Of a stretch of DNA of 64,000 nt, positions 32,240 through 62,936 are shown piece after piece. This DNA comes from Gemmatimonadaceae bacterium (GTDB lineage: Bacteria > Gemmatimonadota > Gemmatimonadetes > Gemmatimonadales > Gemmatimonadaceae), in NCBI GenBank assembly GCA_037721215.1, contig JBBJNV010000002.1, positions 62,001 to 126,000 on the forward strand. The letters run 5' to 3'. The translations under genes and the position numbers were made by a program. The notes beneath the pieces were generated by a model. It ran no database searches, was not told the origin of the DNA, and saw nothing but the letters and a program-made list of their open reading frames with translations. The number at the start of each line of letters is the position of its first letter. Within the stretch, counting starts at the first letter, position 1.

Positions 32240-33238
32240 ATGACGAAAAAGAAAACAATTGCCGCCGTGCCGGCGAAGAAGGTCAGGGAGAAAGCGGCTG
32301 CTGCGACCCGGCAGCCACGCACACCGTCCGGAAAGCGAGCTGATGTCGCGACGCGTACATCGGCGGAAGAGGAATCCCGCGCCGGGATGCGGGAGCGCAC
32401 CGAAGCGGGTCATCGGGCGGCCGGGCGCACCCCTCCATCGCGCAAGAGCTCCGCGCGCCAGGCGGGCGCGACGGTGAGCATTGACGACGCGATTCGCACT
32501 TACGTGCCTCCGATCACGGAGGATGAAAAGCTCCTTCAACAACCACCGACGGGAGTGGATTTCACGCGGACTGATCCGTGGCGTGTAATGCGGATTGCCG
32601 GTGAGTTCATCGAAGGCTTCGATACCCTGTCGACCGTCGAGAGGGGCGTCACGATATTCGGGTCTGCGCGCACATCGCCGGAAGATCCGCAGTACAAGGC
32701 TGCGCAGGAAGTCGCGCGGCTCCTCGCGGAAGCGGGATTCTCGATCATCACCGGCGCAGGCCCCGGGATCATGGAGGCAGGGAACAAGGGTGCCCAGATC
32801 GGTGGAGGCAGATCGATCGGATGCAACATCGAGCTGCCGTTCGAGCAGGGCGCGAATCCGTACGTCGATACACTTGTCAACTTCCGTTACTTCTTCGTCC
32901 GCAAGACGATGTTCATCAAGTATTCGGTGGCGTTCATCATTTTTCCTGGTGGATTCGGAACTCTCGACGAGCTCTTCGAGGCTATTACGCTCATACAGAC
33001 GGGAAAGATCTATCAGTTCCCGGTGATTCTTTTCGGGCGGCACTACTGGGCGGGGTTGCTGCGATGGCTGCAGACCCGTGTGCTCGCTGAAAAGAAAATA
33101 TCGAAGGCCGACATCGATCTGATGATTCTCACCGACGACCCCGCCGAAGCGGCGGCCGCGGTAATCGCCGCCTATGAATCGCAGACATTGATCACCACGA
33201 AGCGCGCCTGGGGTGGGGCCGACCGCAGAAAAGGGTGA
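32240..33238 (+). CDS. LOG-family protein (TIGR00730-like nucleotide 5'-monophosphate phosphoribohydrolase)
   Basis: 332 aa. Residues about 120-300 are the Rossmann-like LOG domain with TIFGSART, ITGAGPGIMEAGNKGA and PGGFGTLDELFE, the family's phosphoribohydrolase motifs (release of free base from nucleoside monophosphates, including cytokinins). The first 80 residues are a lysine/arginine-rich, probably disordered extension beginning MTKKKTIAAVPAKKVREKAA. ATG at 32240 is chosen; the frame upstream overlaps the divergent gene. Confidence 0.85.
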   Translation: MTKKKTIAAVPAKKVREKAAAATRQPRTPSGKRADVATRTSAEEESRAGMRERTEAGHRAAGRTPPSRKSSARQAGATVSIDDAIRTYVPPITEDEKLLQQPPTGVDFTRTDPWRVMRIAGEFIEGFDTLSTVERGVTIFGSARTSPEDPQYKAAQEVARLLAEAGFSIITGAGPGIMEAGNKGAQIGGGRSIGCNIELPFEQGANPYVDTLVNFRYFFVRKTMFIKYSVAFIIFPGGFGTLDELFEAITLIQTGKIYQFPVILFGRHYWAGLLRWLQTRVLAEKKISKADIDLMILTDDPAEAAAAVIAAYESQTLITTKRAWGGADRRKG

Positions 33239-33262
33239 GTGACGGCGGTGACCCGGAGTCGG

Positions 33263-33850
33263 CTAACCGCGCTGCCGCTCCAGCAGCAGCATCATCACGA
33301 TGCTCAACATGCCAAGTAGTTCGTCGTCGCTGTTCATCGCACCCAGCGCTTCGATCTTGTACATACCCTCGAAGAATGCCGGTCGCTTCTGCGCTCGAAG
33401 CACGGCCGTGCCGGTTGCGGAGGAGGAGAGCCGGTACGCGGGGTGGAACAGATAGCCGGAGAGCACGCCTGCCACAGGAATTTCGCTGAACGCTGCGTCG
33501 GCAACCTTGATCCACGGGTTTTCTTCCCGGATGTCGAACACCGGCCCGCCGTCCCTCTGCACCTCGTAATGCGTGCGCCAGAACGACCGCATGCCATGGC
33601 GCTTGATCATGCCTATCGGCTGTCCCGCCATGTCTTCGATGTGATACTGAGCCGAGATGTCGAACACCCGGTCGGCCTTCATGGTGTATAGCGGGCGCGT
33701 CTGTTCTTCGTCCGCGAAGATGGTAACCGTCTCCCTCAGCTTGAAAGCTTTTTGTTTGACATAGCAGAGGAGAAGACCGGAGGAATCCCGCACCGAAATC
33801 TGCGACGCGATTGCGATGATCTTGAATCGAAGCTCGAGCGGAAAGTTCAT
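33263..33850 (-). CDS. LURP-one-related / scramblase-like protein
   Basis: 195 aa. It resembles the LURP-one-related (Tubby C-terminal-like) family: MNFPLELRFKIIAIASQISV then RDSSGLLLCYVKQKAFKLRE, ADEEQTRPLYTMKADRVFD and GMIKRHGMRSFWRTHYEV. A hydrophobic stretch (GMLSIVMMLLL) lies at the C-terminus. Function is unknown; possibly membrane-associated. The start at 33850 matches relatives; 42 in-frame codons upstream look non-coding. Confidence 0.65.
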   Translation of the reverse strand: MNFPLELRFKIIAIASQISVRDSSGLLLCYVKQKAFKLRETVTIFADEEQTRPLYTMKADRVFDISAQYHIEDMAGQPIGMIKRHGMRSFWRTHYEVQRDGGPVFDIREENPWIKVADAAFSEIPVAGVLSGYLFHPAYRLSSSATGTAVLRAQKRPAFFEGMYKIEALGAMNSDDELLGMLSIVMMLLLERQRG

Positions 33851-34122
33851 GTTGTCGAATTTTCGGGGAATGGCCGCGCGGAGCGTGAACAGGGTGATCT
33901 CGGGTCGCGCGTTGAACCGTACCTGAATGAGATATCCAATGCCGCGGCTGATGTATAGGGACCGCCGGTCATCCACGCTGATCTCTCCCGCGGAATAGCG
34001 TTTGTTTCCAGAGATTTTCTCCGGTTCACATTACCAAATTGACTGGTTTCGACGGTTAGCGGTGTGTTCCGGGCGTGCTACCGGATTGCGATGCATTGCC
34101 CCCGTGCCTAGTTTGCGTCACA

Positions 34123-34159
34123 GGGCGCCCCCTCCAAAAGAGCGGGCGCCCATTTTTTT
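34123..34159 (+). terminator. Intrinsic terminator in the greA leader
   Basis: GGGCGCCC at 34123-34130 pairs with GGGCGCCC at 34144-34151 across a 13-nt loop, followed by A and seven T (34153-34159). It lies 33 bp upstream of the greA ATG and points toward it. Since the gene before it is on the minus strand, the only transcript it can end is the greA leader itself. Confidence 0.8.
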
Positions 34160-34191
34160 CTAACCGTTTTTGCGGCGTCACGCCAAAAACC

Positions 34192-34659
34192 ATGATTGAA
34201 GAACTGAAAATCAAGCTCGCCGCGGAAGCTGAAAAGCTGCAACATGAGCTCAATATCGTGCTTCCCGCCGAGATCACGCGTGCGGTCGAGATGGGTGACC
34301 TGAAGGAGAACAGCGAATACAAGGCAGCCCTCGAACGTCAGCAATTTGTTCAGGCCAGGCTTGGGCAACTCCACCAGCGCCTGAGCAAACTCTCGTCGAT
34401 CGACATCACGCAGATTCCGTCCGACAAGGTGGGACTGGGTTCTGAAGTAATGGTGCAGGACGAGAAGACCGGGGTCAAGGAAAAGTACAGCATGGTTTTC
34501 GGCGATTCGGTGGAGCTCGAGGACGGACATGTCAGCATGTCGTCGGCAATCGGCTTGTCACTGGTCGGCCGGTGCGTCGGTGACAGCACACTGCTCAAGC
34601 TGCCCGAGTCGGTGAGGAAGCTCAAAATTGTCGGGCTCAAGACAATCCACGAGATGTAG
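34192..34659 (+). CDS. greA: Transcript elongation factor GreA
   Basis: 155 aa, standard length. The N-terminal coiled coil (ELKIKLAAEAEKLQHELN) carries the tip acidic pair in EMGDLKENSEYKAALERQ, required to stimulate transcript cleavage by stalled RNA polymerase. The C-terminal FKBP-like domain (about residues 80-155) binds the polymerase. ATG at 34192 is supported by length and alignment; the frame upstream passes through the terminator. It is apparently monocistronic, with a strong intrinsic terminator in its leader. Confidence 0.92.
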   Translation: MIEELKIKLAAEAEKLQHELNIVLPAEITRAVEMGDLKENSEYKAALERQQFVQARLGQLHQRLSKLSSIDITQIPSDKVGLGSEVMVQDEKTGVKEKYSMVFGDSVELEDGHVSMSSAIGLSLVGRCVGDSTLLKLPESVRKLKIVGLKTIHEM

Positions 34660-61860: not shown

Positions 61861-62936
61861 GAGCGGACTACCTCACTGATCCCATGGTTGATCCCTTCGC
61901 TCAGGCGAGCGTACGCGGCCAGTGGACGGCGCTCCACCGAGATATTGGCGATGATATTTGCAATCACCGGCTTCGGCTCTTGCCGGGCAGTGAGCCGCTC
62001 CGGCAGGAGGACGAGTGATTGGTATGGACGCGAGGCGAGTGCAAGAAGTGTTGCTCGCTCATCGCGCTCGAATCGCTCCCTCGGCACCTCGTGCGTGGTA
62101 CCGTGCTCACGCGCATTGGCTGTGCGTACAAGCCATGTCAGAGCATCCGCATTGAGATCGGCGTCGCCAATAAATTCCCGGCCATAAGCGAAATTGTGGC
62201 GGACGTAGTGGATCGGCCGCTCGACTTTACCCTTTGTCTTCGCTCGGTACGGCCGGCATGCCCTGATTCGAAATCCCCAGTGATTCGCAAAACGCAGGAA
62301 CTCCGGATTCTCGAAGAGCTTTCCTCCTCCGGCTCGCTTGTCGTCGATGATCACTGCCTTCATCTGATCGAATAGCAGCTCAGCGGGCACTCCGCCGAAA
62401 TAGGCGAAAGCCTCCTCGAGGCCGCGCATCACCACCTGCATGGTCTGCCTGGGATAGAACTGAAGCCAGAGAAGACGCGAGTAGCCGAGGACTACGAGAA
62501 GGGCGTATCGCTTTCCCCAGGGGAATCTGAATTCAGCGAAATCCACCTGGCCCTGCACCCCCGCGGGCGTCTCGAAGCGGGCGACCTCCTCAATCGGCGG
62601 TCTCGGTCTTAACTCTCGCACAAAGCGTCGCAGCTGACTCTGGCCACCGGGATAGCCTGCCGCCCGGCATTCCTCGAAGAGCCGGACCGCAGAAAGCTCG
62701 GGATAGCTCTCGAGCCGGGCGCGAATTATCTCCTTGTACGGCTCAAGCTTTGGTGGGCCCTGAAACCGCTGCCGGGCCGATGGTGCACCATTACTGAGAT
62801 CAAGCTCGAGCTGGCCGGTTTTTATCCAGTGATGCACAACCCGCCGGCTCACTCCCAGCCGCTCGGCGATGGCTGTCTTCTTGAGTCCTTCTTCCAGCAG
62901 GTGTTTGAGTAACACAAGCATCTCCCATCCGTACAC
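61857..62936 (-). CDS. istA: IS21-family transposase IstA
   Basis: 359 aa. An N-terminal helix-turn-helix (GLKKTAIAERLGVSRRVVHH) is followed by the rve integrase core with Asp in GQVDFAEFRFPWG, Asp in LFDQMKAVIIDD and Glu in KGKVERPIHYVR, the DDE triad. The start is a GTG at 62936. It cuts and joins the ends of the element. Length is slightly short of some IstA proteins (about 400-500 aa) but all catalytic residues are present. Confidence 0.93.
   Translation of the reverse strand: MYGWEMLVLLKHLLEEGLKKTAIAERLGVSRRVVHHWIKTGQLELDLSNGAPSARQRFQGPPKLEPYKEIIRARLESYPELSAVRLFEECRAAGYPGGQSQLRRFVRELRPRPPIEEVARFETPAGVQGQVDFAEFRFPWGKRYALLVVLGYSRLLWLQFYPRQTMQVVMRGLEEAFAYFGGVPAELLFDQMKAVIIDDKRAGGGKLFENPEFLRFANHWGFRIRACRPYRAKTKGKVERPIHYVRHNFAYGREFIGDADLNADALTWLVRTANAREHGTTHEVPRERFERDERATLLALASRPYQSLVLLPERLTARQEPKPVIANIIANISVERRPLAAYARLSEGINHGISEVVRS

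Follow-up and report, generated by a model that had tools for sequence, protein, structure and literature searches.

The greA gene of the Gemmatimonadaceae genome analysed here is preceded by a hairpin with a T-tract that we read, with a probability of about 80%, as a promoter-proximal intrinsic terminator in the greA 5' untranslated region, which would cut off part of greA transcription. This sequence-based reading draws on the hairpin, the one-sided T-tract, the covariation of the stem, a conserved promoter-like pair, and the persistence of the element beside a divergent upstream gene. The window (the whole stretch of 64,000 nucleotides that was analysed, positions 62,001 to 126,000 of contig JBBJNV010000002.1) contains the following features in this region:

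33263..33976, minus strand: divergent upstream neighbour, 237 aa, from the ORF list; no Pfam match at E 0.001
34086..34091, plus strand: predicted -35-like element TTGCGA, read in the sequence and corresponding to the TTG/TANNNT pair of the family
34109..34114, plus strand: predicted -10-like element TAGTTT, 17-nt spacer; start expected near 34120-34122
34123..34151, plus strand: putative terminator hairpin with an 8-bp GC stem GGGCGCCC/GGGCGCCC, a C.C mismatch, 3 inner pairs and the loop CAAAA
34153..34159, plus strand: T7 tract, the putative terminator U-tract, read in the sequence and consistent with the 3'-side T bias of the family
34192..34659, plus strand: greA, 155 aa; Pfam GreA_GreB and GreA_GreB_N above cut-off

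The hairpin and greA in the window

The element consists of GGGCGCCC (34123-34130), C, CTC (34132-34134), CAAAA, GAG (34140-34142), C and GGGCGCCC (34144-34151), followed by a single A and T7, and each arm is palindromic on its own. The fold of 34123-34151 has 8 + 3 pairs and -21.7 kcal/mol (z -4.4), and none of 200 shuffles is equally stable. The greA start codon (ATG, with its A at 34192) follows 33 bp after the last T. An earlier note on this DNA had described an 8-bp GC stem with seven T, 33 bp before greA on the greA strand, and both the reading of the sequence and the fold confirm this description. The arrangement, with a GC-rich hairpin and then a T-tract on the transcribed strand, is that of an intrinsic terminator, and its d score is 9.4. 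In an exact-pattern search of the 3.5-Mb assembly, GGGCGCCC-N(3-20)-GGGCGCCC occurs only once. A simple consensus scanner listed neither the 34123-34151 hairpin nor a plus-strand promoter; it allows loops of up to 8 and probably counted the C.C mismatch as part of a longer loop, which may explain the miss of the hairpin. A second hairpin beside the ATG (34166-34190) is weak (z -1.4, with 23 of 200 shuffles equally stable) and was dropped.

The downstream gene is the sole PF01272 match found in the genome. Among named records, Gemmatimonadota supply the nearest relatives of this greA. In an alignment to E. coli GreA, both acidic residues of the tip (GDLKEN) are kept, so the protein could be catalytically active and feedback by GreA is possible. 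The nearest plus-strand gene upstream of greA, a LOG-like gene with a Lysine_decarbox match, ends at 33238, which is 885 bp before the hairpin, and the minus-strand gene separates the two in 33239-34191.

Conservation of the element in the family

The greA loci come from three sources: 19 genomes of the window's genus, of which 18 gave a match; 99 family genomes, of which 90 did (six of the 99 are genus members again); and nine named contigs, which were assigned to the family by 65-72% GreA identity. Two family matches were left out, namely that of G099, which begins at the contig end, and a second fragment in G055. After orientation, 112 loci were available, two of which (L029 and L030) are outside the family. 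The remaining 110 family loci gave 101 distinct leaders upon removal of L017 and L124, which have too little upstream sequence, and of seven letter-for-letter repeats.

A hairpin with a T-rich tract is present in 92 of the 101 distinct leaders under a lax rule (dG <= -12, spacer up to 8, a limit widened from 6 after the first look at the sequences), and in 88 of 97 leader clusters formed at 80% ungapped identity. The lax rule is also satisfied by 248 of 1010 shuffles (40/170 for the genus and 208/840 for the other family leaders), i.e., in about a quarter of leaders. For this reason the lax scan was rejected as the sole evidence, and a strict rule, a covariation analysis and a promoter test were added. 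Under the strict rule (dG <= -17, TTTT within 6 nt, at least 6 outer pairs), the element is found in 16 of 17 genus leaders (shuffles 3/340) and in 57 of 84 other family leaders (shuffles 16/1680).

The nine leaders in which the lax rule finds no element are L012, L100, L101, L102, L111, L122, L143, L156 and L182. Five of these (L012, L100, L101, L102 and L182) have greA 18-98 bp behind a LOG-like gene, L122 has a hairpin with its T-tract partly outside the 130 scanned bases, and in L111 the promoter-like pair is still visible by eye.

Among the 92 elements, 80 have TTTT in the 14 nt on the 3' side of the stem, and one has AAAA in the 14 nt on its 5' side. The loop ranges from 3 to 11, and the commonest stem form is CGCCCGGC..GCCGGGCG. 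Identity is 0.93 in the gap-aligned stem and 0.43, ungapped, before the ATG, a comparison that favours the stem. The stem identity hints at recognition by polymerase or a factor; common descent could equally keep the letters. Many family elements would be weak terminators, because only 24 of the 92 reach d > 0 and because several C-rich bases separate the stem from the T-tract in many relatives. The description of the terminator as strong in the earlier note consequently holds for the window but not for the family as a whole. The E. coli greA leader (GraL) itself scores 0.27.

Covariation of the stem

Of the 92 elements, one is identical to another, and 12 of the other 91 were excluded by eye, mainly as near-duplicates, which left 79 for alignment; the counted structure was taken from the hairpin of the window, and the shuffles keep relatedness in place. 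In ten of the 12 stem pairs, both partners have changed and still pair. There are 46 double-change cells against a shuffled mean of 13.2, and none of 500 shuffles is as high on any of five measures. Paired cells amount to 89.8%, whereas sliding the partners by 1-3 columns gives 34-45%. Of 66 sequences, 38 do not form the outermost of the 12 pairs. In the clade of the window itself, the stem letters depart from the family consensus and the pairing is kept.

A covariance model built from 60 elements outside the genus gives its highest score over 364 kb of the genome (22.1 bits, E 0.0013) to the window site. Of the 16 other genus loci scanned with this genus-free model, 13 have a leader match at E <= 0.01 and three (L010, L012 and L015) do not; a second match lies elsewhere in L014, and six loci are also matched on the opposite strand of the same hairpin. 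Searched over whole genomes at E <= 0.01, the model finds the leader in 10 of 19 genus genomes, and at that scale the window's own site falls short of E 0.01. With a family model, 47 of 59 genomes (one of them a tie) have greA in first place, five more have it lower and seven do not have it listed; since the model was trained on greA sites, the top rank is partly built in. Among 12 other matches of the family model, picked by hand, six are centred 37-44 nt and a seventh 60 nt behind the end of a same-strand gene, and these are terminator-like. One further match, at about 1500-1545 of L277, is centred 44 nt before a hisG-like gene with a divergent neighbour and is perhaps a his leader terminator.

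A promoter-like pair before the hairpin

Of the 92 leaders, 74 carry a TANNNT whose distance to the stem core downstream is 11-32 nt, versus 635 of 4600 shuffled segments and 21 of 276 windows further upstream; the shuffles are single-base shuffles of 60-nt segments, and the search window was set after the sequences were seen. A TTG lies 16-19 nt upstream of TANNNT in 61 of the 92 family leaders, versus 28 of 4600 shuffled segments (0.6%). In these 61 leaders the promoter-like pair would place the predicted start site before the element, as expected of a greA-leader attenuator. If transcription starts 7 nt past the -10, the RNA of the 74 leaders with TANNNT is predicted to run for about 7 nt (IQR 4-9) before it enters the stem core and to have a median length of about 41 nt (IQR 38-44) at the T-tract.

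These features suggest how the element may work. Polymerase would start near 34121, and the hairpin would form within the first few nucleotides of the RNA. At T7, a leader RNA of roughly 35-40 nt would be released, or polymerase would read through into greA, and the terminator would in this way set the fraction of initiations that become greA mRNA. The d scores suggest that termination is partial rather than complete. Since the predicted RNA before the hairpin is so short, a classical antiterminator would barely fit upstream, and any regulation would have to target polymerase or its factors. The most likely mechanism is an attenuator that is either fixed or tuned by GreA.

Comparison with known leaders

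In E. coli, the GraL RNAs are 37-47 nt from P2 and 49-59 nt from P1, and about one third of the transcripts read through the greA leader (PMC6829880). GreA is reported to lower greA expression in vivo via the GraL sequence, with its catalytic residues needed, but to have no such effect in vitro; the mechanism of this self-limitation is given as unresolved, with an unknown factor suspected (PMC6829880). The leader described here resembles GraL in that an intrinsic terminator stands close behind a promoter in the greA leader, with stem, one A and seven T in the same order, and in the size of the RNA, 37-47 nt from P2 (PMC6829880) and a predicted median of 41 nt here. The parallel to GraL drawn in the earlier note is therefore borne out in layout, that is, in the order of hairpin, A and T7 and in a similar predicted distance from promoter to terminator. 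It differs in sequence: no similarity to GraL or RF01769 is detectable in the family element, RF01769 has no match at E <= 10 in 33950-34300 (127.5 bits for the E. coli control), and the E. coli greA locus is not listed at E <= 1 with the family model (R1). A scan of the whole window against Rfam gave no hit at the gathering threshold.

If the element is regulated, the likeliest form is negative feedback of the E. coli type by GreA, a further step that we hold to be rather less likely than not. Control of read-through by GreA, as the earlier note had proposed, would be unexpected in direction if GreA were to drive it, because the E. coli data point to GreA raising termination, and this in vivo only (PMC6829880).

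Naville and Gautheret (2010, PMC2965389) describe greA/rnk-leader attenuators in Proteobacteria, bacilli and Clostridia as the seventh-ranked family. The recurrent design anticipated in the earlier note is accordingly real but already published for greA/rnk in those groups. Each of those attenuators is described as having a clear antiterminator (PMC2965389), whereas here about 7 nt of predicted RNA precede the stem core, which is too short for an upstream one. The main text of that paper contains no word beginning with Gemmatimon (PMC2965389), and no report of greA attenuation in Gemmatimonadota or of such a sequence family was found in the open-licence literature. The family element is a separate sequence family in another phylum, of a kind, the greA-leader attenuator, that is already known, and predicted greA attenuation is thereby extended to Gemmatimonadota. 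By analogy, a greA-leader terminator is probably a recurring way to limit GreA.

The rimP-leader of the nusA operon is also similar: it is a short terminator hairpin with conserved stem letters, a T-tract and no visible antiterminator, and it precedes an operon encoding an elongation factor (PMC2965389). It differs in the gene and in the stem orientation, which is GGGc..gCCC there (PMC2965389) and most commonly CGCCCGGC..GCCGGGCG here.

We regard it as possible but rather doubtful that Gemmatimonadaceae independently evolved a minimal GreA feedback attenuator, with a hairpin at the 5' end, no antiterminator, and stem letters read by polymerase together with GreA or NusA. If this is true, the sole Gre factor would gauge its own activity by how often polymerase passes the site, and, together with the rimP hairpin of the same genome, elongation factors in distant phyla would be repeatedly controlled by the step on which they act. 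As a second greA leader, unrelated in sequence and found in 92 of 101 sampled leaders of the family, the element offers natural variants (in stems and T-tracts, with a few losses) for testing what feedback requires.

Alternative explanations

The hairpin could be the 3' terminator of an upstream plus-strand gene, for example of the LOG/lysine-decarboxylase-like gene, that stands before greA by accident. With gene neighbours called by a crude GC3 caller, the element is found in 36 of 41 leaders with a co-directional neighbour and in 9 of the 14 in which a LOG-like gene is the direct neighbour, and similar hairpins occur behind other genes, all of which would suit this explanation. Two loci of another family of the class have a tmRNA gene right before greA (L210:564-931 and L222:545-910), and the terminator-like hairpin between the two genes is probably the tmRNA gene's own terminator. 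However, the element persists in 40 of the 42 leaders whose neighbour within 400 bp is divergent, which argues that it is not simply the terminator of the upstream gene. The window has it as well, with the end of the LOG-like gene 885 bp away, and the promoter-like pair stands immediately 5' of the hairpin in 61 of 92. This origin is therefore quite improbable. The orientation of the neighbour is unclassed in 18 leaders, 16 of which have the element. In 33 leaders, 30 of which have the element, the minus-strand neighbours are similar to each other by blastp, and their THxHxDH motif suggests what we take to be metallo-beta-lactamase-fold proteins.

Stabilisation of the 5' end of greA mRNA by a hairpin that does not terminate transcription is the foremost of the other explanations, and itself improbable. 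In known 5' stabilisers, the hairpin starts within a few nucleotides of the 5' end, and here too it begins a few nucleotides from the predicted 5' end; many T-tracts in the family are also short or offset from the stem. A stabiliser needs no T-tract, however, and the tract lies on the 3' side only (80 versus 1 of 92). A further explanation, which is very improbable, treats the element as a self-standing small-RNA gene that ends in its own terminator; greA would then have another promoter behind it and perhaps a leaderless transcript. Shine-Dalgarno-like sequence is absent before greA in the window (34176-34191), and only 18 of 101 family leaders have an SD-like 4-mer before the ATG, which is compatible with leaderless transcription. 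Between the stem and the ATG, however, there is no promoter-like excess (TANNNT in 11 of 75 stretches, near the 14% of shuffled segments), and the leader near the ATG is little conserved in comparison with the stem (0.43 ungapped versus 0.93 gap-aligned). The least probable explanation makes the inverted repeat a repressor's DNA operator located behind the promoter: the highly conserved stem letters (0.93) and the palindromic arms of the window would fit it, but the loop varies from 3 to 11, unlike a fixed-spacing operator, the pairs covary, and the T-tract is on one strand only. The promoter-proximal terminator remains the reading that we prefer.

Distribution outside the family

The outside-family sample consists of 40 loci fetched of 69 matches and the two named phylum contigs (L029 and L030), 42 loci in all. 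The lax rule finds the element in 15 of 22 loci of the sister family (shuffles 39/220), in one of two of the third family of the order (1/20), in 9 of 16 of other families of the class (30/160) and in both L029 and L030 (7/20). The corresponding strict counts are 4/22 (shuffles 1/440), 0/2 (0/40), 3/16 (6/320) and 2/2 (1/40). At E 0.05, the genus-free model finds at best four of the 42 loci on the greA strand before greA (L227, L216, L030 and L209). In other phyla, the lax rule gives 7/67 (shuffles 34/670) and the strict rule 3/67 (shuffles 0/1340), and a few of these greA-leader elements may be real. A universal greA-leader terminator is not clear from this sample, in which the strict rule finds 3/67 in other phyla.

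Other predicted terminators and leader hairpins in the lineage

In 364 kb of the window genome, d > 0 is reached in two of 138 leaders and three of 138 gene ends (shuffles 0/414 each); the greA leader is outside the 138, presumably because mechanically called ORFs start upstream of its hairpin. One of the two leaders with d > 0 precedes a gene read as metH, where a SAM_alpha riboswitch (RF00521, 40.6 bits; L197:4985-5059, minus strand, contig C1 of the same genome) adjoins, and slightly overlaps, a GC hairpin with T6. Because of this arrangement, leader hairpins of such a type can be regulatory in the window genome. A TPP riboswitch (RF00059, 63.3 bits) is present at L185:13169-13287 (plus strand, contig C2 of the same genome). 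On the minus strand of L185, upstream of 3165, the leader of a gene read as cysteine desulfurase, which has a divergent neighbour, contains a hairpin with T5.

The rimP (PF02576) leader of the window genome, at about 1405-1440 of L281 (plus strand, contig C32), contains a hairpin (TGTGGGG..CCCCACA) and then T7, some 30 nt ahead of the likely ATG. It resembles the published rimP-leader, and no rimP-family match is obtained in Rfam at E <= 1.

In the relative G064, of which 400 kb were scanned, a strong hairpin with a T-tract is found at 11 of 117 gene ends and in 6 of 104 leaders. The possibility that the stem letters are those of the general terminator stem of the lineage was rejected, as CGCCCGG is present in none of the 11 gene-end hairpins. 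The genome of this relative contains 13 matches to the family model, greA included.
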